Shown piece by piece: positions 9,456-31,122 of a stretch of 38,843 nt of DNA (positions are counted from its first letter, which is position 1; every line of letters begins with the position of its first letter). The notes under the pieces are model-generated. The model did no database searches. It saw only the letters and a list, made by a program, of their open reading frames with translations, and had not been told where the DNA came from. The position numbers were made by a program, and so were the translations under genes. The DNA comes from Verrucomicrobiota bacterium (GTDB lineage: Bacteria > Verrucomicrobiota > Kiritimatiellia > SS1-B-03-39 > UBA6053), in NCBI GenBank assembly GCA_020831635.1, contig JAFIGC010000040.1:1-38843 (forward strand), given 5' to 3'.

Positions 9456-10715
9456 TTATCCCTTATCCAAATCCCCCGGCTTCAAATATCTCGCGGCCAA
9501 AAACATGCCCACGATCGCGAGCGCGGCCGTGGGGACGAACATCATGGAATATGAGCCGGTGAGATCACGGATCACGCCCGTGACCAGGGTCCCCGACAAG
9601 GCGCCCACCCCATACGCGGTGAAAACCAGACCATAATTCCCGGCATAGCGGGCGGGATCGAAGAGCTTCAGCGTGGCCGTGGGGGCCAGGGCCAGCCATC
9701 CGCCCAGACACATCCAGAACACACAGAAGCTTATGGCGTAGCGGATCACGTTCCCCTCTCCCACCGTCAACATCGTCAAAGACGCTGACAAAATCAGCAC
9801 AAAAGAGAGCACCGCCGCAAAGCGGGGAGACCGATGGTCCGCCAGCCAACCGAACAAAGGCCGGCCCAATCCGTTGAAGACCGCGAAAAGAGACACCAGG
9901 ATCGCGGCGGTTTCCGGGGGCAAGCGAACCACCTCCTGGGCCACGGAACTGGAAATGCCAATCACCGAAAGCCCCACGAACGTGCCGATGGTGTAACAGG
10001 CGCAGAGAATGTGAAAAACCGGCGTCCGCAAAAGATTGTCCGGATAGCGTCCCAGTGACGAGCCCGAGGCGGCCACGGCAAGAACGCTTTTGGGCGACCA
10101 GGCCGGAGGGGGATAGCGCATGAAACACGATACCAACAACAACACACAAAGAAACGCCCCTCCCAAGGTCCAAAACGTTTGTTGCACGCCCAGTTGATCC
10201 ATGAGAAATTTTGCCAAGGGCGCGGTCACCAAAGGCGAAAGGCCAAAGCCCACCATGGTCAATCCCATGGCCAGCCCCTTTTTGTCGGGGAACCAAGCCG
10301 CCGAAACCGCCAACGGCGCTCCATAGGCAATCCCCACCCCGGCGCCGCCCAAAACGCCATAACACAAAACCAAGGTCGGCGTGGATGTCGCAAAACCGGT
10401 CAAAACGTAGCCGGTGCCAATCAACAACGCCCCCAAAGCCATCATCCGTCCCGGTCCCAGGCGATTCATGTGCGCCCCCGCAAACGGCATGCACACCGCA
10501 TACATCACCAACATCACCGTGAACGGCAACAAGCTCGCGGTCGATTGAATGCCATGCAGTTCTTGCAAGGGTTTCCTGAAAATACTCCAAGAATACACCG
10601 TGCCCATGCACAACATGGCCAACACGCCCAAAAGCAAAAACACAATGCGTCCGCGTTCGGCGGAAAAACCGAAGACACGGAGTTCATGGTGTTGAGGTTC
10701 AGCTTGCGATTCCAT
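9456..10715 (-). CDS. MFS transporter, oxalate/formate antiporter-like
   Basis: A 419-residue major facilitator protein with about twelve hydrophobic segments in two halves, expected in the inner membrane. The first helix VFLLLGVLAMLCMGTVYSWSIF and the following FRKPLQE and LPFTVMLVMYA blocks resemble the OxlT-like/monocarboxylate branch (oxalate:formate antiporter family). The loop NRLGPGRMMALGALL matches the MFS motif between helices 2 and 3, and FNGLGRPLFGWLADH is its repeat in the second half. The substrate is probably a small carboxylate, but this is only by family. The start at 10715 is preferred over in-frame upstream ATGs because homology begins near here and because the upstream DNA is shared with the divergent acyltransferase gene. 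Confidence 0.85.
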   Translation of the reverse strand: MESQAEPQHHELRVFGFSAERGRIVFLLLGVLAMLCMGTVYSWSIFRKPLQELHGIQSTASLLPFTVMLVMYAVCMPFAGAHMNRLGPGRMMALGALLIGTGYVLTGFATSTPTLVLCYGVLGGAGVGIAYGAPLAVSAAWFPDKKGLAMGLTMVGFGLSPLVTAPLAKFLMDQLGVQQTFWTLGGAFLCVLLLVSCFMRYPPPAWSPKSVLAVAASGSSLGRYPDNLLRTPVFHILCACYTIGTFVGLSVIGISSSVAQEVVRLPPETAAILVSLFAVFNGLGRPLFGWLADHRSPRFAAVLSFVLILSASLTMLTVGEGNVIRYAISFCVFWMCLGGWLALAPTATLKLFDPARYAGNYGLVFTAYGVGALSGTLVTGVIRDLTGSYSMMFVPTAALAIVGMFLAARYLKPGDLDKG

Positions 10716-10799
10716 TCTGCATGCATAAACTACCCCCTTGCCCTGGTTCTGCCAAGCAGAATCCCGCATCATCTCCCACCTAACCATGTCCAACGTCAA

Positions 10800-11633
10800 A
10801 TGATCGCGAATCTCCGCTATTTTTTCAGACTCTCCGCCATCCTGCTCGCGTCGCTCATTCTGTGGATCCATGCCAAGTCTGTCCGCGCAATGACGCGCAA
10901 AAACCCTGAAAAACGTTATCGACTGATCTGCGAGGGCATGCGCGCCTACTGCCGCGCGGTGGCATGGATCATCGGCATGACCCTCCGCCTCCACGGCACT
11001 CCGCCCAAGGCGCCCTTTTTTCTGGTGGCCAACCACATCAACTTCACGGACATCCCCCTCCTCTGCGCCCTTTGTCCCGGATGGTTTGTCAGCAAAGCGG
11101 AAGTCGCCAACTGGCCCGTCTTGGGTTCATTGACCCGCAACACCCACACCCTCTTTCTCGACCGAAACAAACGACACGACGTACAACGCGTGAACCAGCG
11201 TATCGCCGAACGCGTCCGCCAAGGGGATGGGGTCGTTTTCTTCCCCGAAGGCACCACCTCCGACGGTACTTCCGTGCGCCCCTTCCAACCCTCGCTCCTA
11301 CAACCGGCCATCGAATTGGACATTCCCGTACACTGCGCCGCCATCGTCTACACCACCCCGCCGGGGGCGCCCCCGCCCTCCGAACTCGTCGGATGGGACG
11401 GCGGCACCGCCTTCGGAACCCACGCCAAAACCCTGCTATCCACCCCCGGTTTCACCGCCCACGTCCACTTCAGCGAGCAAACCGTGCAGGCCAAAACCCG
11501 CAAACAACTCGCCCTCGAAGCCCAAGCCCTGGTCGCCAACCTTCACGGCGAATTGCTCCGACGCTCAGCGTATGCCCCGGACCTCGTCCAAAATGGCGGC
11601 ACCGAAAGTGAAGCCGCCCCCGAAGGCGCATAA
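10800..11633 (+). CDS. 1-acyl-sn-glycerol-3-phosphate acyltransferase (PlsC-type)
   Basis: A 277-residue acyltransferase that should acylate lysophosphatidate, or a similar lysolipid, at the membrane during phospholipid synthesis. An N-terminal hydrophobic helix (about 8-25) anchors it. The catalytic motif NHINFTD (Asn78-His79-x4-Asp84) and the substrate block FFPEGTTSDG (about 147-156) are intact. The start at 10800 excludes a long in-frame upstream extension that lies antisense to the MFS gene. The last ~22 codons (11565-11633) run antisense to the conserved end of the ketosynthase domain of the convergent fusion gene and have a low-complexity composition, so the tail is probably a read-through with no function of its own. 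Confidence 0.88.
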   Translation: MIANLRYFFRLSAILLASLILWIHAKSVRAMTRKNPEKRYRLICEGMRAYCRAVAWIIGMTLRLHGTPPKAPFFLVANHINFTDIPLLCALCPGWFVSKAEVANWPVLGSLTRNTHTLFLDRNKRHDVQRVNQRIAERVRQGDGVVFFPEGTTSDGTSVRPFQPSLLQPAIELDIPVHCAAIVYTTPPGAPPPSELVGWDGGTAFGTHAKTLLSTPGFTAHVHFSEQTVQAKTRKQLALEAQALVANLHGELLRRSAYAPDLVQNGGTESEAAPEGA

Positions 11634-14600
11634 GCCGATTTTTTCAGCGCGGGCGCCGTTTTCAAAGAGTTCGTTCAAGGCTAGCGGAATGCTGGAGGAG
11701 GAGGTGTTCCCGTTCAACCGAATGTTACTGAAACATCGGTCATCGGCGAGTTGCAGGCGTTTTTGTACGGCGTCCAGAATCCGTTGATTGGCCTGATGGG
11801 GCACAATCAGGTCCAAATCCTCCACGCCTAGATCCACTTGCGCACAGGCTTCCAGAAGGGACTCGCTCATGAGACGCACGGCCTTGGCAAACACGGTCCG
11901 CCCTTGCATTTCGATCACCCCGTCTCCGGGCCCCAAGGGGACGGTGATGACCGACGCCCGGTCTCCGCGGGCGGAAACGAATGGCCGCCGAAGACGGGCG
12001 GACGGCGGATGCGGGATCTCCGTGCTCAGGAGGGTTGCCGTGGCGGCGTCCCCGAAGAGAATCGCGGTGTCGAAATCGTCGTTCCGAAGCAGTGGGGACA
12101 AATGTTCGCTGGTCACAATCAAGGCCTTGCCCTTGCCTCGGACGCAGAGGTGATCGTGCCCAAGTTGCAGGGCGTACAGATACCCGGAGCAGGCCGCATT
12201 CACGTCAAAGGCCTGCACGGGGGCGTCCTGATCGTCGGAGAGGCGTGCAAGCAATTCGCAGGCCATGGAGGGGGTCGTCCGCACGGGCGTGCCGGTGGCG
12301 CAGATCAGCAGATCCACATCCGAGATTGTCAGTTGATGTTGTGCGAGGGCCTTGCGAACCGCCGTTTCCGCGAGGGACAACGCGTCTTCGCCCTCCGCGG
12401 CCCGGCGACGCTCCTCGATTCCGGTGCGCGTGAGGATATCCTCCGCCGTCCTTTCCGCAAAGGCGGGGGCCATCTCTTCGTTGCCGACCCGGCGCGATCC
12501 TTTGGCCACGCAGGGTTTGCCCAAATGGACGATTAGCGGATGGGAATTCGCGCCGCTTTCCTTTCGCCGCGTCGCGCGGGGGCGCAAATGCGGAATCGCG
12601 GCATGGCGCTCCGCCTGCCCGGTCCGCGAAGTCGTTGTGGCTGCGGCCAATTCCAAAACCGGGGCGCCGACCGGAATGCGATCCCCTTCCTCCGCCAATA
12701 CGCTGAGCACCCGACCCGACAGCGGCGCGGTCAGCTCCAGAACCGCCTTGTCCCCTTCCATCTCCGCCAGCAGCTGACCCGTTTGCACTTCATCCCCTTC
12801 CTTCACGTTCCAGGTGATGATTTCCACGGTTTTGTCCGCCGGACTGGAACCCACCGCGCGGATTTCACAACGATCCGTTTCCATCGCTTCCGGCATGGAC
12901 CAACTCAGATCCAGGTCACACAATTCCGCCGCCGCTTCCAGAATGTCATTCACCGAAGGCAACAGATCCAATTGATTGGAAAAATTGCAGGGGATATACG
13001 TGTCCGCCCGCGCCACCCGCCGCGCTTGGATGGGTGAAGAAAGACGCTCCACCACCGAAGCCACCACCTCCGCCCCGAAGCCGCAGGTGATGTTGTCCTC
13101 ATGAACCACCAAGAGGCGTTTCGTCTTGCCGACGGATCGGAAAACACAATCCCGGTCCCACGGGGCGATTTGGCGGAGATCGATGATTTCACACGACACC
13201 CCGGCTTTTTCCAAATGTTCGGACGCTTTCTGCGACAAAGCGACCGTATTCCCCCAGCCCACCAAAGTCAGGTCCTGCCCTTCCTGCAAAATCCGCGCAC
13301 GTCCAATGGGCACAAAATGCTTTTCGATATCCCTCGAAGTTGCCGTGTCCATGTCGTTCAGGGCGTTTTTGGGGTAGAAAAACAAAGTGGGACGACCGGA
13401 TTGAAACGCGGCGTTGAGCATGCCCGCCGCATCCGCCGCATTGCCGGGCATCATCACATCCACGCCGGGCGTGTGCGCGGCCACGGACTCGAGGGTCTGC
13501 GCGTGAAAAGGCCCCAGCCCGGGTCGATATCCCCCGCAGGTGATCATCAGGATGACCGGACATGCCCACTCGCCTCGCGTTCGCCAGTACATGCTGCCCA
13601 GTTCGGAGGCGATCTGGTTGAAGGCCAACGGCAGAAAATCCGCGAACTGGAGAAACGCAACCGGTTTTTGCCCCGCCAACGCCCGCCCGATGGCGGTGCC
13701 GACAATGGTGGATTCGGAAAGTGGCGCGTTCACCACCCGGGCAGGATGCAGAGTGCTCAAGCCAGCGGTGACCCCGAACACATCGCCCTTGGGATCCTCG
13801 ATATCCTGCCCGTACAGAAACACCCCCGGATCCTGTTCAAGCTGAATCCGCAACACTTCATTGAGGGCCCGCCGCATGTTCAGTTCAGGCTTCTTAGGAT
13901 CTCCCCGGTACTCCGTCAACCTTTCCGGCAAAGGACGCGACGCATCCAAACAGGGTTCAGGCGCGGGCGCGAGCAAAGCCTCCCGCGTCAGCACCCGCAT
14001 GGAAGCCCGAACCGTTTGCCGCTCCCGGGACAAATCCTCCTCCGAAACGCCCCGCGCGATCAGTTCGTTTGCCAGATTCGCCAGCGGATCCTGGGTCGCT
14101 TCCGCTTCCGCCAACTCCGCTTGACGCCGGTACACCCGTTGATCATCCGCATTGGTATGGTTGGAAAGGCGTTCCGTCCGCATCACCACAATCGACGGAT
14201 TCCGCGTTTCCCGAATCTCCCCCACAACCTGCGCGAACATCCGATCACAGGCGGGCACATCCCAACCGTTGATTCGCTGAATGGGGATGCCGTAAAATTC
14301 GGATGCCTCGCCATCGGGTCGCGAGAAAAACGTTTTTCCGTCGGTGGGCACGGAAATGGACCAACGATTGTCATGAACCAGAAACAGAACCGGAAGCCGC
14401 CAACGGACCGCCTCCGCGACCGCCTCCAGAAACTCGCCCTGTTGGGTTGTACCGTCGCCCACCGAACACAAAACAACCGGACGCTCGGGCTGATCGCTGA
14501 TCGCGGAAGCCACGCCCGCCGCATGCAGGGCGTTGTTGCCCACGGGTCCGGGAATGCTGAGGATATGACGAGTCCGGTCGCTCATATGCGCGCTCATTTG

Positions 14601-14885
14601 CCGACCGCCGGAAGGACTCGACTCCCGGCAAAGCACGCTGTCCAAAAACATCCGCGGCGGCACGCCCCTCGCCAGCATCAGCGCCTTGTCGCGATAGTGG
14701 CAGTGCAGATAATCGGACGCAATCAGATGCCCCGCCAACGCCGCGCCGGCTTCGTGACCCGCACCCGACACATGGAAAAACGCCTCCCCGCGCGTCACCA
14801 ACTCCATTTCCCGTTCCTCCAAGACGCGGGCGGTCAGCATCACCCGGAAGAGTTCCCACAGGCGTTCGCTAGGATTCGGTTTCAT
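11565..14885 (-). CDS. Four-domain fusion: 2-oxoacid dehydrogenase E1-alpha, E1-beta, lipoyl domain, ketoacyl-ACP synthase III
   Basis: The 1106-residue protein joins parts normally on separate chains. Residues 1-310 are a thiamine-diphosphate E1-alpha (GDG at 143-145, closing DN at 172-173, phosphorylation-type loop near 243-253). Residues 335-660 are E1-beta with catalytic Glu391 in PLSESTIVG. Residues 683-750 are a lipoyl domain with acceptor Lys713 in EGDKAVLEL. After a charged linker (750-800), residues 800-1106 are a FabH-like ketosynthase with the full triad Cys899 (NAACSG), His1030 (PHQANQ) and Asn1060 (NGNTSS). No E2 acyltransferase or E3 domain is present. Inference: it decarboxylates a 2-oxo acid, loads the acyl group on lipoamide and primes chain elongation with malonyl-ACP. 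GGAGAGGA lies upstream of the start. Branched-chain fatty-acid priming is the likeliest role; a polyketide role is possible. Confidence 0.9.
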   Translation of the reverse strand: MKPNPSERLWELFRVMLTARVLEEREMELVTRGEAFFHVSGAGHEAGAALAGHLIASDYLHCHYRDKALMLARGVPPRMFLDSVLCRESSPSGGRQMSAHMSDRTRHILSIPGPVGNNALHAAGVASAISDQPERPVVLCSVGDGTTQQGEFLEAVAEAVRWRLPVLFLVHDNRWSISVPTDGKTFFSRPDGEASEFYGIPIQRINGWDVPACDRMFAQVVGEIRETRNPSIVVMRTERLSNHTNADDQRVYRRQAELAEAEATQDPLANLANELIARGVSEEDLSRERQTVRASMRVLTREALLAPAPEPCLDASRPLPERLTEYRGDPKKPELNMRRALNEVLRIQLEQDPGVFLYGQDIEDPKGDVFGVTAGLSTLHPARVVNAPLSESTIVGTAIGRALAGQKPVAFLQFADFLPLAFNQIASELGSMYWRTRGEWACPVILMITCGGYRPGLGPFHAQTLESVAAHTPGVDVMMPGNAADAAGMLNAAFQSGRPTLFFYPKNALNDMDTATSRDIEKHFVPIGRARILQEGQDLTLVGWGNTVALSQKASEHLEKAGVSCEIIDLRQIAPWDRDCVFRSVGKTKRLLVVHEDNITCGFGAEVVASVVERLSSPIQARRVARADTYIPCNFSNQLDLLPSVNDILEAAAELCDLDLSWSMPEAMETDRCEIRAVGSSPADKTVEIITWNVKEGDEVQTGQLLAEMEGDKAVLELTAPLSGRVLSVLAEEGDRIPVGAPVLELAAATTTSRTGQAERHAAIPHLRPRATRRKESGANSHPLIVHLGKPCVAKGSRRVGNEEMAPAFAERTAEDILTRTGIEERRRAAEGEDALSLAETAVRKALAQHQLTISDVDLLICATGTPVRTTPSMACELLARLSDDQDAPVQAFDVNAACSGYLYALQLGHDHLCVRGKGKALIVTSEHLSPLLRNDDFDTAILFGDAATATLLSTEIPHPPSARLRRPFVSARGDRASVITVPLGPGDGVIEMQGRTVFAKAVRLMSESLLEACAQVDLGVEDLDLIVPHQANQRILDAVQKRLQLADDRCFSNIRLNGNTSSSSIPLALNELFENGARAEKIGLCAFGGGFTFGAAILDEVRGIR

Positions 14886-14927
14886 GTTTGTTTTCCTCTC
14901 CGATTTCCGCGAGTTCGGTGGGTGTGA

Positions 14928-15644
14928 TTATTTATCCAGCGTTTTCACCAAAACGTCTTTCACGAAATCAGGGAGCGACATACCGGCATTCCGAGCATCG
15001 GCTTTCAAGATTTCGTATTTTTCAATCTCAGATCCTTGCCACATCAGGTCCAATCTGCGCACTTGGCGCATCGCAACATGGTTGTAGTTTTCAGGGTAAG
15101 CCCAATAGCAAGACAGGCAAACCTCTTTCTTTTTATCAATCTGCCAATTCGAGCAATGTTCACATGACCAGGATTTCGCCCGGTTCGCCGATCCGCAAAG
15201 CAACATGAAGTCATTCGGATTCAACTCGGATGCGTCTCCGGCTACTTCGAAAGGGCCTCGATGGTCGATCTGCAAATCCCTTTGCTCAACTTCTTCCAAA
15301 TAAATGAAGCATTTGCACCCATATTGTTCGATTAATTGATCTTTGATTTCCTTTGATAAACCTGTTCGCCCATCAAACCTTCGAAACTTCAACTGCGAGG
15401 GGTCCGCAAATTTGTAGGCGGCGATTCTACGTTCATCCGGACCCTCGACCCGAAAAGTTTCCAAAGGAATTCCATTTTCACGCACATCACGAGCTGCACG
15501 AGGCGGATGATTATAGCCATATTTTGACTTCAATTCATCGGTTGTAATGTGACCGTGTTTTAAAATATGATCAATAACCGTTTTTGGACGTTTGGCGGTA
15601 ACTGACTTACAAAGCTGTAGAAACTCTTTGGGGTATTTTGCCAT
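14928..15644 (-). CDS. HNH restriction endonuclease, partner of the adjacent methylase
   Basis: A 238-residue protein with three parts. Residues 20-67 look like a winged helix (VIDHILKHGHITTDELKSKY). Residues 108-160 are an HNH nuclease core: CKC (110-112), the catalytic DLQIDHRGP with Asp127-His128, and LLCGSANRAKS with Asn154. Cys161, Cys164, Cys176 and Cys179 form a four-cysteine zinc site. The tail (about 207-236) resembles a ribbon-helix-helix dimerisation segment. The start lies 38 bp inside the methylase gene, so translation is probably coupled. The role as a type II restriction enzyme is inferred from this pairing; the recognition site is unknown. The DNA is much AT-richer than flanking genes. 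Confidence 0.8.
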   Translation of the reverse strand: MAKYPKEFLQLCKSVTAKRPKTVIDHILKHGHITTDELKSKYGYNHPPRAARDVRENGIPLETFRVEGPDERRIAAYKFADPSQLKFRRFDGRTGLSKEIKDQLIEQYGCKCFIYLEEVEQRDLQIDHRGPFEVAGDASELNPNDFMLLCGSANRAKSWSCEHCSNWQIDKKKEVCLSCYWAYPENYNHVAMRQVRRLDLMWQGSEIEKYEILKADARNAGMSLPDFVKDVLVKTLDK

Positions 15645-16560
15645 ATGGGGACGTGGGTTCGAGTAGTTGCATCTGTGAAGTGTTTGCGCGATAATGTGTA
15701 CACGGCAAAGCGCTCATCTCATTTGAAAGTGTCTGGGAAAGATAGAGAGATTCAAATGTAACATCTTTCCGCCCCAATAATGTGGCCTGCGAAGATCTAC
15801 CTGCCTCGATTTCAACCAGAGTAAGGTCAAGGTAATCGGGCAAAGGTTCGCCATAGCTCTGCTCTCCAAGTCGCCCGTCATAGCTTATCATGTACCGAAC
15901 ACCCCGCGCATTGAGCTGATCAAGGGCAACCACGAAATCATCAAAGGAAATCCCGCTGACATAACGGGCGTCCCGTTCCCCACATACGCCTTGATAGGGA
16001 GGATCCATGTACACGACATCCTCGTCGCGACAGTTGGCAAGTACATCCCGATAATCCTGAGCAGTTACAATTGTCTTTCCTCTCAACAGCATTGAAACGC
16101 CAAGAATGTTATTTTTCATTCGGTCCGGATGCGTACCAAGTCTTCTTTTGTCAGGGCTTTGGTTAAACAAACCATCTGAATTATAACGAACCGAGGCTTT
16201 CACACACCTGGCCAACAAATAAAGCAAGAGCTTTGGATCATTTGTACGGTTAAATTCCTCTCTCACCTGGTAATAATGTTCCAGAGGTTCCTGGTCTTCG
16301 CTTCTCCATGTCGATTTGTAAAATTCAGACACTTCTTCGGGTTGGTTAACAATAAGACCGATCAATTGGGCAAGAGGCTTGTTGAAATCATTCAGCCAGT
16401 ATTCTTTTGCCTTCCCTCTCGCCGCACAAGCGAGTGAAAACGCGGCCGACCCTGCAAAAGGCTCGACAATTCGATGAACCCGGTGGGGTAAATACTGAAG
16501 TATCGTTGTTGCAAGGGCTCTCTTGCTGCCCTGATACTGAAAAGGTTGTGGAATTTTCAT
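15607..16560 (-). CDS. DNA adenine N6-methyltransferase, D12 class (type II modification enzyme)
   Basis: A 317-residue methylase that transfers a methyl group from S-adenosylmethionine to adenine N6. The order of motifs is that of the alpha/Dam class: PFQYQGSK (motif X, 6-13), VEPFAGSAAFSL (motif I, 32-43) and the catalytic DPPY (186-189). The middle block CVKASVRYNSDGLFNQSP (119-136) lies in the target-recognition region. The start at 16560 is set by a strong AGGTGG site five bases upstream; an ATG three codons earlier overlaps that site. It is the promoter-proximal gene of a methylase-nuclease operon, which allows protection before cutting. Its AT-rich composition suggests recent transfer. 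Confidence 0.92.
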   Translation of the reverse strand: MKIPQPFQYQGSKRALATTILQYLPHRVHRIVEPFAGSAAFSLACAARGKAKEYWLNDFNKPLAQLIGLIVNQPEEVSEFYKSTWRSEDQEPLEHYYQVREEFNRTNDPKLLLYLLARCVKASVRYNSDGLFNQSPDKRRLGTHPDRMKNNILGVSMLLRGKTIVTAQDYRDVLANCRDEDVVYMDPPYQGVCGERDARYVSGISFDDFVVALDQLNARGVRYMISYDGRLGEQSYGEPLPDYLDLTLVEIEAGRSSQATLLGRKDVTFESLYLSQTLSNEMSALPCTHYRANTSQMQLLEPTSPYGKIPQRVSTAL

Positions 16561-16647
16561 AAAAACCACCTAACACCGATCAAAAATGAAGTCCATAAAT
16601 TTTTTCAATATTCTGTACGCTTGAATAGCTTTAAGGGGTTGTGCCGT

Positions 16648-18498
16648 TCATCTACACCCAACCATCGACGATTGGCGGGTTCGGTGTGGAGCAAGCAGGA
16701 AGAATCCGACGAGGAGGATGAAAACGACGCTCATAACATTGGGAAAATGATGACCGCCCCGTTGGTATAGGGTGCGGCCGGAGGTGGTGGAGGTGTTCCG
16801 GATGGAGAATCCCTGGACTCCGGCCAGGACGCGCAGGCGCTCGATCTCGGCGACTCGTCTTTGGTGTTCGGCGAGGAGGGCGGGATCGGTGGCGATGGCC
16901 TCGACGCCGTGTTCGTTGCGGAAGGCGAGCAGCGCGTCGATGGCGACGGAATCGGGTGCCCCCACGCGGGGAAAATAGTTGCCGGATTCGTTGGTGACCA
17001 TTCCGGTATACCGTCCGGTGGGATCGACAAATCCGGAAACCCCCGCATTGGTGGCACGGGCCACGGTGGTGCGGGCTTCCACGGCCCGGAAGGCCATGGC
17101 CATCTTGCTCACGAGAATCGAATGATTGCGATGAAAACGCCCCTCGTTGGCGAGGGTGAGAATGAGGGGCTGGCGGCCTTCGGGGGATTCCGCGAATACC
17201 CCCGCACTTTCGGAATGCAGAATTTCCGAGCAAATCGCGACCACGAAAGGATGGCCGTTCATCCGCATGAGTACGCGCTCTTCCCCGGCAACGAGGTTGC
17301 CGATGGATTCGACCCAACGCCGGACCGGTGGTATCCAGCCCGCCCATCGCAGCCAGGCGTCGGTTCCACCGGGAATATACTCTCCGCCGGGAAAGAGCCG
17401 CATCTTGAATTGGCTGTCCTCCCCCTCCCCCGCGCCGGGCACAAAAAGGGTCGCGGCATTGCGCTCTTCAAAATAGTTGGGAAAGGTCCCGCCGCCGGGG
17501 CGTTGATCGGAAAGTCCCGCGAGCACGGGCAATCCAAGAGCGTGAACCCATTGTATAAATGAAGCCTGTTGCTCCGCCCGTACCTGTCGGAACCGCATCC
17601 ATTCGGCCTCGAAGGGCTTCGGATCGCTTTCGGCTTTAGCGCGCTCGGCCTCCGGCACCATGTTCGGGTGGAATTCGGCTTGCAGGAACTCCACATTGAA
17701 TAGCGGGATGTCGGCGGCCTTTTCCGGCCAGAGGATGAGGTCCGGCGGTTCGGGAGCGCGGGCGGCCTCTTCGCTCATGCGTTTCAAGTCCTGCATGAGC
17801 ATCCGTCCGTCATAGTTTTTCGCGGGATCCTGAAAAAGAAGCGCGTCGGACTGCAGCACGGCGATGCGCGGACCGGGTTGCAGCGTCTGGTCGATCCGCC
17901 GGATTCGAAATTGACCGTACCCGAAAATCATCCCCCAAGCGGCGGCGACGGCAAGCCCCCCGGGGAGGAGCGCGTGACGTAGGCGCGCTCTTCCGGGGCC
18001 ACGGGCCAACAAGGCGTCGAGCAGCGCCCCGTTGGCCGCGGCGATGGCGAAGGAAATCAGCATGGGGCCACCGAGGTCGGCCGTTTGAATCATCCAGACC
18101 TGTTCATGACAACCGAAGGCCAGGACCGCGAAGGGCAACCCGAAGGGACCGGCCATGCGCAAACTTTCCGCGCCCACCCAAGCGACGGGCAACACCCAGG
18201 CCATGCGACAGCCGCGACGCCGTCCCTCATACACGGCCAGGGCCACGGGAATCAGGGTCAAGGCATTCAGGAAGACCAGCAGATTGGCGGCGACATGGTT
18301 GTAAACCGTCAGCCTGTCCTGCTGAATGCGCAGGGCCACGAAGCCGCCGAGCAATCCGAGCCACACGCAGCCCCAACGGCTCCGGCATCGGGCGAAGGCA
18401 AAACCAAGGGGCAACGGGGTCAGGAGGATCGCCGGCCACCAACGGAAGTAACCGACTTCGCAAAACACACCGCTCAAAATCGCCAAGAAGGCCGGCAA
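16648..18498 (-). CDS. lnt: Apolipoprotein N-acyltransferase
   Basis: Adds the third acyl chain to the N-terminal cysteine of lipoproteins in the inner membrane. The N-terminal half has six to seven hydrophobic segments, followed by a nitrilase-type domain from about residue 210 and a final transmembrane helix (MSVVFILLVGFFLLA). The catalytic triad is intact: Glu259 (LILWPEKA), Lys365 (FKMRLFPGGEYIP) and Cys423 (AICSEILHSE). At 616 residues or more it is longer than E. coli Lnt (about 510), with inserts around 270-310. The only standard start near the right place is TTG at 18498, but the reading frame is open a further 12 codons and the protein resembles Lnt already at the codons just upstream, so the true start is uncertain. 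Confidence 0.88.
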   Translation of the reverse strand: MPAFLAILSGVFCEVGYFRWWPAILLTPLPLGFAFARCRSRWGCVWLGLLGGFVALRIQQDRLTVYNHVAANLLVFLNALTLIPVALAVYEGRRRGCRMAWVLPVAWVGAESLRMAGPFGLPFAVLAFGCHEQVWMIQTADLGGPMLISFAIAAANGALLDALLARGPGRARLRHALLPGGLAVAAAWGMIFGYGQFRIRRIDQTLQPGPRIAVLQSDALLFQDPAKNYDGRMLMQDLKRMSEEAARAPEPPDLILWPEKAADIPLFNVEFLQAEFHPNMVPEAERAKAESDPKPFEAEWMRFRQVRAEQQASFIQWVHALGLPVLAGLSDQRPGGGTFPNYFEERNAATLFVPGAGEGEDSQFKMRLFPGGEYIPGGTDAWLRWAGWIPPVRRWVESIGNLVAGEERVLMRMNGHPFVVAICSEILHSESAGVFAESPEGRQPLILTLANEGRFHRNHSILVSKMAMAFRAVEARTTVARATNAGVSGFVDPTGRYTGMVTNESGNYFPRVGAPDSVAIDALLAFRNEHGVEAIATDPALLAEHQRRVAEIERLRVLAGVQGFSIRNTSTTSGRTLYQRGGHHFPNVMSVVFILLVGFFLLAPHRTRQSSMVGCR

Positions 18499-28614: not shown

Positions 28615-31122
28615 TCATGGGGTGACGGCGCGAACACGATAAAAGCGGCTATTGGTCATCGGGGCGGTGGCGGGAGGACCCTGGTCAATCCACTGGGTGA
28701 AATTCGCCCCCGCAAGCAGGTCCAAGGCCACCGTGTGCCATGTACCACCGTTGAGGTCATCCGTGTAGTCGATTTGATAATGGGTTCCGGCCACACTCGC
28801 GAATTCGATAAACACCCGACCGTCGTCCATCGTTTGAATGCGAGTGATGTTGGGCGCCAGATCCCCTTCCGCGGGCTGCGGGGTGTCGGCCATAATGAAT
28901 TGAATCTCGATCGTGGGCGGATGCTGGTCGGGACGGAAAGCCCCGGTGGAAAGATACACCACCGACAAATCGACGCTGGCGCCGGATTCAAAGGGAAACG
29001 CCATGGAAATGGCGACTCTTCCGTCCGGTTCGGGCGCGGTTCCGTTTTGGTTTTCCACCACGATACCGTCTTCTATGTCTGAGAACAGCAACCGAATGCC
29101 AATCGCATCGCAGGGCTCGTCGTTCCGCACCGTGATTTCCTGGGTAAAGCGGGGATTCCAAGGCTCCCAAGGAAGGAAGTCACTGCTGACCGTGGTGGGA
29201 TGTCCCACCACGTCAATGAGTAGAACCATCACTTGGTCGGGGACTTCCAGATCCGAGGCGGTCACCGTAATTTCCACCTGGCCCATGGAGAGGGCCTCCG
29301 TGCGGAGCTTGTTGTCCGCAGTGATCACCGCAGTCATAATCGTGGGATCACTGGAACTGGCCGTGTAGAACAAATTCTCTCCCGTAAAGCTACCTGACAA
29401 GTCATTTTCAAGCAAAGTTCCCAAGGTAATCGGGATTCCGCAGGACGGGGGAGCGGCCACGAATTGCGCCTCCACGGTGACATCCGCTTGGACATTGGTG
29501 TCGGTGCGGGGATTGTCGTTGGAGGGGTGGGTGCCCAACCATTCCACAAACACAAAACCGGGGGCGGCCTCGGCCGTGACTTCCGTCCCGTCGTCGCCTT
29601 CGTTGACAATCTGCGGGGAGACGCCATTGATACTTCCCCCAATGCCCGCGGTATAGGTTAGCGTATAGGTCACGGCTTCAAATTGCGCCTCCACGGTGAT
29701 GTCTTCCTGAACATCGGTGTCGGTCCGGGGATTGTCGTTGGAGGGATGGGTACCCAACCATTCCACAAACACAAAACCGGGGGCGGCCTCGGCCGTGACT
29801 TCCGTCCCGTCTTCCCCTTGGTCGACGATCTGCGGGGAAACGCCGGAAACGCTACCCCCGGGACCCGCCGTATACGTCAGGACAAACTGATTGGGCAAAA
29901 TTTCAACAAACTGCGCCTCAACGGTGATATCTTCCTGAACATTGAGGTCGGTGCGGGGATTGTCGATGGACCCGTCACTCCACTCCACGAACACAAATCC
30001 GGGTTCGGCGTTGGCCTCGACTTGGGTTCCGTCATCCCCTTCGGCGACGGTTTGCGGAGAAACCCCGGAAATATTGCCGCCAAGGCCCGCGGTATAGGTT
30101 AGGGTATATTCGGTAACAAACTGCGCCTCCACGGTGATATCTTCTTGAACATTGAGGTCGGTGCGGGGATTGTCGATGGACCCGTCACTCCATTCCACAA
30201 ACACAAAACCGGGTTCGGCGTTGGCCTCGACTTGGGTTCCGTCTTCGCCTTCCATCACAAACTGTGGAGAGTCTCCAAGAATGGAGCCCCCCAAACTTGC
30301 TTCATAAATCAAGGTGTATTGATTGATCTGTTCCGAATCCACAATGATGTTTTGGTCTAAATTTACAGCCGTCTGCGCCAAGAGCTTCCCGTTGAACGTG
30401 GCGTTGGTGAGCAAGTCGATCTTCGTTGCGGTCAACAGCACCCCTTCAAAATGCGCGGTGGTGCCAATCACGGCTCCGGAGCCACCCGCGACCTGCCAGA
30501 AAATATTCTTGGCTTGTGCACCCCCGGCCAAAATCACACTTTGGCCGCTCGATACGTTCAAATCACCTTCAATCTGGAAGATAAAGACCGCATCGGGGAC
30601 GCCACCGGCATCCAGCGTTACATTGTTACTGATCCCTACGCCCGTTCCCCATTTGTGAAGACCGGGGGAGATGGTCAGTCCGCCGATTTCTCCGCCACCC
30701 AGATTGGTGGTGTCCGGATCCGTCCGCCCAGCGGCTACCGTATAAGCCGTTTCCATGTCCGAGATGGCCGTGGTCATTTTGGTGGGGGTGGGTGGTGAAT
30801 AGTCCGAGGCATAGATTTCCCCAGTGACTTGGGCGGAGGTGGAAAACTCATTCGAGCTGTCCATGATCAATGCAAAGCCGGTGATGGCGGTGGAGTCGAT
30901 GGGACTCACCCCCATGTCGCCGGTGATGTCGGAGTCCGGCACATTGGTGATCCCGGACTTGGCCAGAATCACGAAATCACCGGCGGAGTTCAGGTTGATC
31001 GGATCTTCGGGGTGTCCGGCTTTGGCGGACGGGACCAAAAGGGCCGAACCAAGAATCAGGAGATGCATCCAACGGGAAATACCAATGCCGGAATATGATG
31101 AATTGAATATGGGGAATTTCAT
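28615..31122 (-). CDS. Surface protein: DUF3494 ice-binding domain plus four InlB-type repeats
   Basis: An 835-residue protein. A signal peptide (LLILGSALLVPSAKA) is followed by a DUF3494 ice-binding domain at about 44-262, recognised by NSAGDFVILAKSGITNVP, ITGDMGVSP, MSDMETAYTVAAGR-like SDMETAYTVAAGR, LGGGEIGGLTISPGLHKW, FIFQIEGDLNVSSG and GGAQAKNIFWQVAG. Four repeats of ~72 residues follow (269-556), each with PGFVFVEW and ITVEAQF, typical of divergent InlB B-repeats. The C-terminus (about 755-835, TRIQTMDDGRVFIEF...SRFYRVRAV) is the phylum's common terminal module, shared with the protein at 18.5-20.9 kb. In known family members DUF3494 adsorbs to ice or limits recrystallisation; the repeats suggest display at a distance from the cell. 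Ice binding has not been shown here and is inferred from the domain. Confidence 0.88.
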   Translation of the reverse strand: MKFPIFNSSYSGIGISRWMHLLILGSALLVPSAKAGHPEDPINLNSAGDFVILAKSGITNVPDSDITGDMGVSPIDSTAITGFALIMDSSNEFSTSAQVTGEIYASDYSPPTPTKMTTAISDMETAYTVAAGRTDPDTTNLGGGEIGGLTISPGLHKWGTGVGISNNVTLDAGGVPDAVFIFQIEGDLNVSSGQSVILAGGAQAKNIFWQVAGGSGAVIGTTAHFEGVLLTATKIDLLTNATFNGKLLAQTAVNLDQNIIVDSEQINQYTLIYEASLGGSILGDSPQFVMEGEDGTQVEANAEPGFVFVEWSDGSIDNPRTDLNVQEDITVEAQFVTEYTLTYTAGLGGNISGVSPQTVAEGDDGTQVEANAEPGFVFVEWSDGSIDNPRTDLNVQEDITVEAQFVEILPNQFVLTYTAGPGGSVSGVSPQIVDQGEDGTEVTAEAAPGFVFVEWLGTHPSNDNPRTDTDVQEDITVEAQFEAVTYTLTYTAGIGGSINGVSPQIVNEGDDGTEVTAEAAPGFVFVEWLGTHPSNDNPRTDTNVQADVTVEAQFVAAPPSCGIPITLGTLLENDLSGSFTGENLFYTASSSDPTIMTAVITADNKLRTEALSMGQVEITVTASDLEVPDQVMVLLIDVVGHPTTVSSDFLPWEPWNPRFTQEITVRNDEPCDAIGIRLLFSDIEDGIVVENQNGTAPEPDGRVAISMAFPFESGASVDLSVVYLSTGAFRPDQHPPTIEIQFIMADTPQPAEGDLAPNITRIQTMDDGRVFIEFASVAGTHYQIDYTDDLNGGTWHTVALDLLAGANFTQWIDQGPPATAPMTNSRFYRVRAVTP
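29455..30318 (-). repeat. Four tandem coding repeats (InlB B-type)
   Basis: Units at 30109-30318, 29887-30108, 29668-29886 and 29455-29667. Units 1 and 2 share SDGSIDNPRTDLNVQEDI; units 3 and 4 share LGTHPSNDNPRTDT. The pairs are nearly identical even at the DNA level, so recent pairwise duplication or gene conversion is likely. Confidence 0.85.

Follow-up and report, generated by a model that had tools for sequence, protein, structure and literature searches.

Branched-chain fatty acids are started in Staphylococcus aureus by the sequential action of Bkd and FabH, which are separate proteins linked by free acyl-coenzyme A (acyl-CoA) primers (PMC8524195). FabH binds CoA by hydrogen-bonding the adenine to Thr28 and stacking it between Trp32 and Arg151; the pantetheine is held by Arg36 and two asparagines (PMC4606726). 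Dehydrogenase components can also be fused, as in the actinobacterial OdhA/KGD, a 'two-in-one' 2-oxoglutarate dehydrogenase (OGDH) that combines the decarboxylating component E1 with the acyltransferase E2 (PMC10415282). Here we describe a single 1106-residue protein that joins E1-alpha, E1-beta, a lipoyl domain and a ketoacyl-acyl carrier protein synthase III (KAS III; ACP, acyl carrier protein). It is encoded in a 38,843-nucleotide stretch of DNA (hereafter the window; contig JAFIGC010000040.1, positions 1-38,843, assembly GCA_020831635.1) from a Verrucomicrobiota bacterium (Kiritimatiellia; SS1-B-03-39; UBA6053). Its sequence makes it probable that the fusion is a self-contained chain-starting enzyme, in which a branched-chain-type 2-oxoacid dehydrogenase carries KAS III in the place of E2.

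The frame runs uninterrupted from ATG to stop, and Pfam places along it E1_dh (residues 14-311, 8e-39), Transket_pyr (335-510, 3e-24), Transketolase_C (528-639, 5e-28), Biotin_lipoyl (686-746, 5e-15), ACP_syn_III (893-956, 8e-15) and ACP_syn_III_C (1015-1099, 9e-25). Neither the E2 acyltransferase domain (PF00198) nor a domain of lipoamide dehydrogenase (E3) is matched by Pfam in the protein, and KAS III stands at the E2 position. A sequence-only reading of the locus had described this one frame of four parts without E2 or E3, naming Lys713 in the lipoyl domain and Cys899, His1030 and Asn1060 in the ketosynthase, and the domain order and an alignment of 44 sequences bear it out: Lys713 is present in 44/44, Cys899 in 43/44, and His1030 and Asn1060 in 43/43, the single exception at the catalytic sites of KAS being an E2-ended variant (L039) discussed below. 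Lys713 is also invariant in a separate alignment (n=39); a scripted count of the DKA motif overlooked 12 sequences, probably through a fixed window unsuited to N-extended proteins, and the alignments are the valid test. The E1 active-site residues are conserved along with the three E1 domains, as in an E1 of the branched-chain 2-oxoacid dehydrogenase (BCKDH) type. An AlphaFold2 model built from 39 aligned sequences has a mean predicted local distance difference test score (pLDDT) of 87.8 and a predicted template modelling score of 0.68, with pLDDT below 50 confined to the linker (753-760, 772-782) and the last three residues; its nearest folds are E1-beta chains and KAS III enzymes.

Likeness to the E1 of BCKDH/Bkd (Thermus thermophilus 1um9, human 1dtw) extends to the E1-alpha and E1-beta folds, the motifs of enzymes that use thiamine diphosphate (ThDP), GRQM and QFAD, the active-site Glu and His and the lipoyl acceptor. 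The fusion differs in carrying both E1 parts, the lipoyl domain and KAS III on a single polypeptide, with no match to an E2 catalytic or peripheral-subunit-binding domain. With the S. aureus route it would share 2-oxoacid decarboxylation, acyl activation and condensation by KAS III with malonyl-ACP, but it is one chain and its KAS has no CoA-adenine site. OdhA/KGD, to our knowledge the closest fused enzyme, likewise unites E1 and an acyl acceptor enzyme in one polypeptide; there, however, an E2 succinyltransferase accepts the acyl group and makes acyl-CoA, the E1 is of OGDH type and a lipoyl-KAS arrangement is absent.

The ketosynthase domain shares with FabH the fold, the Cys-His-Asn triad and the ACP-site arginine, but it forms a clade of its own and has lost all three residues that bind the adenine of CoA. 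In particular, when 72 fused domains were aligned with E. coli FabH and with 29 free FabH (28 of them from genomes that carry the fusion, and L122 from a genome that encodes an E2-ended variant), Thr28, Trp32 and Arg151 were kept in 24, 29 and 25 of the 29 free enzymes and in 0/72 fused domains at each position, a count in which L036 is unaligned for at least one of the three, probably as its domain was shortened by a fixed-length trim. The alignment rows printed contain no gaps between the RTGI and FGD anchors and the altered positions. Conversely, Cys112, His244, Asn274 and the ACP-site Arg249 (FabH numbering) are retained in 72/72 fused domains, Asn247 in 71/72 and Arg36 in 58/72. The fusion reaches 219.4 bits with the FabH model TIGR00747, under the cut-off of 292.1, whereas the free FabH of the same genome scores 434.5. 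This profile is what a KAS III that still takes malonyl-ACP, with a primer no longer coming from CoA, would look like.

The main competing explanation is that the fusion works by proximity only: a separate E2, from a pyruvate dehydrogenase (PDH) or OGDH complex, would unload the lipoyl domain of the fusion onto CoA, and the KAS III domain would use the resulting acyl-CoA at a raised local concentration. One or more PF00198 matches are found in 46/46 genomes tested, an E2 could conceivably act in trans, and the fusion narrowly passes the model of the general KAS III subfamily NF006829 (252.2 bits, cut-off 249). We nonetheless consider this explanation improbable. The CoA-adenine residues are gone from all fused KAS, whereas even PqsD, a divergent KAS III that uses CoA, has Thr28, Phe32 and Arg153 described at its CoA site (PMC3734052).

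Proximity is also at odds with the exact place that KAS occupies, which is that of E2 on a shared chassis. Indeed, E1alpha-E1beta-lipoyl chains with an E2-like end occur in six planctomycete genomes and one spirochaete (L173, L174, L175, L177, L178, L190, L191); they have the same E1-lipoyl order as the fusion and about 40% identity to it over E1, and differ in ending in an acyltransferase (PF00198 in L173, L175 and L191, the 3/7 tested), presumably making acyl-CoA. These chains would each be an apparent one-protein E1-E2 acyl-CoA maker. In a tree of E1, quickly built and with long outgroup branches, the seven E2-ended proteins are sister to the KAS fusions, both groups being supported at 99 or above. 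A further E2-ended protein, L039, is nested within the KAS clade (support 96). It lies at the same place as L157 (111-3356), for which Pfam also returns PF00198 (4/4 proteins with L173, L175 and L191), is 57.6% identical across E1 to the protein of the window and is known from one low-coverage metagenome contig; it is an apparent domain swap-back to E2. From the sister clade and the nested L039, E2 and KAS III appear to be interchangeable ends that were exchanged at least twice on one E1-lipoyl chassis. The lost CoA site and this exchange both count against an acyl-CoA intermediate.

A similar indication comes from the home genome, which is 96.5% complete. E1_dh is found there only in the fusion, in a 1025-residue frame at C131 and weakly at C129, and a search with the fusion as query returns no other E1 of its type in that genome. 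The frame at C131 is followed by an E2 frame in an OGDH-like layout, while at C148 an E2 is followed by E3 in a PDH-like layout, both names being based on layout. These two loci hold the only E2 domains of the home genome, in which no branched-chain E2 is recognised; thus, as far as its sequence tells, the full E2 partner that would have spoken against the sequence-only reading is absent. That reading had also suggested a search for a stand-alone fabH, which is present within plsX-fabH-fabD. Free KAS III proteins, judged by frame lengths, coexist with the fusion in the genomes searched. The fusion is therefore an additional initiation enzyme rather than the sole one. In three genomes (G381, a single contig, G032 and G084) it is the sole E1_dh protein. 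Lipoyl synthase (lipA) is present in the home genome, and E3 exceeds the cut-off in 7/7 genomes tested.

Direct transfer from lipoyl to ketosynthase is favoured by the loss of the CoA-adenine site with retention of catalytic and ACP residues, by the E2/KAS swap, and by a home genome in which the fusion is the sole E1 of its type, the E2s lie in PDH-like and OGDH-like loci and FabH has its own cluster. On balance we lean towards fatty-acid initiation free of both E2 and CoA, with dihydrolipoamide as the acyl donor to the ketosynthase and KAS III replacing E2 as the acceptor. The ThDP-dependent E1 part would decarboxylate a 2-oxoacid, probably a branched-chain one, and reductively acylate the lipoyl group at Lys713. 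The linker would then let the lipoyl domain swing, and its S-acyl-dihydrolipoyl group would acylate Cys899, with no acyl-CoA released. Condensation of the acyl group with malonyl-ACP would yield a 3-ketoacyl-ACP, which would feed fatty-acid synthesis in parallel with the ordinary acetyl-CoA/FabH route, and a shared E3 would reoxidise the dihydrolipoyl group. We infer this chemistry, together with lipoylation, substrate and product, from what can be read in the proteins and genomes, namely the domains, the catalytic residues, the missing adenine site, the exchange of ends and the presence of E3 and lipoyl synthase. The earlier proposal that dihydrolipoamide passes its acyl group to the KAS cysteine without free CoA has thus gained partial support, from the adenine-site loss and the E2/KAS swap.

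Several observations weigh against this mechanism. The phosphopantetheine arm occupying the FabH tunnel is longer than the lipoyl-lysine arm (about 14 angstrom), and the reach of the latter to Cys899 is therefore not assured. On the ACP side, Lys214 is only partly retained (16/72 fused KAS). The fused KAS domains are one clade (SH-aLRT 100), so the adenine-site loss, best read as a single event then maintained, counts once and not as 72 independent cases; such a loss would lower the likelihood of CoA use without excluding it. Moreover, most fusion loci have no adjacent lipid genes, and the substrate is assigned by homology alone.

The ketosynthase might also act as an acyltransferase, passing the acyl group from lipoyl to Cys899 and on to ACP without condensation, or might serve a specialised lipid or signal instead of membrane fatty acids. 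A few genomes do have lipid-tailoring genes beside the fusion (Xenococcus PCC 7305, a planctomycete with an AMP ligase-PP protein and another with a desaturase). We give such roles little weight, as 72/72 fused domains retain the Cys-His-Asn triad and GNTS, a motif of decarboxylating KAS III, and as neighbours that vary by lineage, mostly with no lipid cluster, better fit a general role.

Regarding the substrate, the comparison with solved structures places the alpha chain closest to Thermus BCKDH (2e-39), followed by human BCKDH (4e-25) and bacterial PDH (3e-22), while the beta chain is less decisive (BCKDH 1e-55, bacterial PDH 2e-51). The GRQM and QFAD motifs are also nearer to branched-chain enzymes. 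As the E1 is nearest to branched-chain 2-oxoacid dehydrogenases, these acids are the best guess and branched-chain priming would be likely. The same hand-off could instead start from pyruvate or another 2-oxoacid and lead to a straight-chain or unusual product, an option that overlaps with the favoured mechanism and differs in substrate only. The NCBIfam matches of the E1 part, all far under cut-off, carry PDH names, and the beta chain is nearly balanced, but the alpha chain and the motifs point the other way. So does position 87, which we take from general knowledge to lie at the primer pocket of FabH: Thr is found in 70/72 fused KAS and Phe in 22/29 free FabH, which implies a pocket roomier than that of acetyl-specific FabH. 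Such an alternative substrate appears rather unlikely. For comparison, iso-C14:0 makes up 10-23% in Coraliomargarita type strains (PMC10288369), which may or may not carry the fusion.

If the proposed mechanism is true, lipoic acid would donate an acyl group directly to an enzyme that forms carbon-carbon bonds, with 2-oxoacid oxidation and chain initiation in one protein, and proof of the hand-off would establish a new type of reaction. The cell would choose its fatty-acid primer by enzyme and not by competition in the acyl-CoA pool, with a predicted split between housekeeping FabH for acetyl-CoA and the fusion for branched primers. A compact single-gene starter would also be available for engineering.

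The 72 full-length single-frame fusions analysed come from Verrucomicrobiota, Spirochaetota, Planctomycetota, a cyanobacterium, Marinobacter and others, so the sequence-only reading, in looking to Verrucomicrobiota for its recurrence, was right but too narrow. Across species genomes, a scan returned 54 related loci. About 43 are full-length single frames, in Spirochaetota, Planctomycetota, Verrucomicrobiota, a deltaproteobacterium, Devosia, Marinobacter halodurans and Xenococcus sp. PCC 7305; Hydrogenedentota gave shorter fragments. Among Verrucomicrobiota, 36/388 genomes match at E<=1e-130, with 34 of the matches spanning nearly the full protein, in 16/199 genera, and the spread is patchy, not universal. 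The cut is also passed in 10/296 sampled Spirochaetota and 9/294 Planctomycetota genomes, some of these proteins being broken or E2-ended. All six Pfam domains are present in 39/39 aligned members. The nearest relative, in a congener, has 80% identity across residues 1-1100, which excludes a join created in the home assembly; with the 72 single-frame proteins it rules out an assembly artefact and a lack of relatives. One planctomycete genome (G403) has two copies (L152 2248-5766 and L041 5594-8995), and a spirochaete copy (L179 5823-9315) is split into three overlapping frames with breaks within domains, reflecting decay or frame errors. As the earlier reading had supposed, searches of the open-access literature found no description of a protein of E1-lipoyl-KAS III architecture, subscription papers being outside this coverage.

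Table 1. Positions of the fusion gene, its domains and key residues in the window
Feature	Position	Strand	Remarks
Whole E1alpha-E1beta-lipoyl-KAS III frame	11565..14885	-	1106 aa, ATG to stop, uninterrupted
E1-alpha domain, aa 14-311 (PF00676)	13953..14846	-	motifs GRQM, HTNADDQ
E1-beta, aa 335-639 (Transket_pyr + Transketolase_C)	12969..13883	-	QFADF motif; E391, H461 invariant
Lipoyl domain, ~aa 672-750 (PF00364 686-746)	12636..12872	-	Pfam and AlphaFold2 model
Lys713 codon, predicted lipoyl attachment site	12747..12749	-	within EMEGDKAVLEL (EGDKA)
Lipoyl-KAS linker, aa 753-795, flexible stretches	12501..12629	-	pLDDT <50 at 753-760, 772-782
KAS III domain, ~aa 796-1099	11589..12500	-	PF08545/PF08541, NF006829, FabH fold
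Cys899, predicted nucleophile (= E. coli FabH C112)	12189..12191	-	72/72 fused KAS
His1030 (= FabH H244)	11796..11798	-	72/72 fused KAS
Asn1060 (= FabH N274)	11706..11708	-	72/72 fused KAS
Arg812, at FabH Thr28 position (H-bond to CoA adenine), lost	12450..12452	-	Thr 24/29 free, 0/72 fused
Asp816, at FabH Trp32 position (stacks on CoA adenine), lost	12438..12440	-	Trp 29/29 free, 0/72 fused
Phe938, at FabH Arg151 position (stacks on CoA adenine), lost	12072..12074	-	Arg 25/29 free, 0/72 fused

Gene neighbourhoods are mostly uninformative for function, being lineage-specific in Verrucomicrobiota. In 26 Spirochaetota loci the fusion is divergent from an adjacent aconitase-type gene, and NeuB-like and seryl-tRNA synthetase genes often accompany it, a set that is read as local synteny. 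In Xenococcus sp. PCC 7305 the fusion is adjoined (L038 9550-15677) by genes for an SDR, a fatty-acid hydroxylase, an 816-residue alpha-oxoamine-synthase-like/GNAT protein and an AMP ligase, a set suggestive of an aminolipid or signal cluster. In the window, a gene for a PlsC-type acyltransferase (10179-11633, plus strand) is convergent with the fusion and shares about 69 bp with its 3' end; it is also adjacent in a congener (L023), and its nearest NCBIfam models are lyso-ornithine-lipid acyltransferases (137 bits, cut-off 300). On the other side, about 1.8 kb (14868-16691) lie between lnt and the fusion, where a congener (L130) has about 235 bp; this segment encodes two proteins that may form a restriction-modification pair, an adenine methylase of Dam type (15607-16569) and a winged-helix protein (14928-15644) that carries cysteine motifs. 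Elsewhere in the home genome, contig C23 encodes a chalcone-synthase-like type III polyketide synthase (L155 7097-8374), and the window contains, at 28615-31122 on the minus strand, an ice-binding-like domain followed by InlB B-repeat domains.

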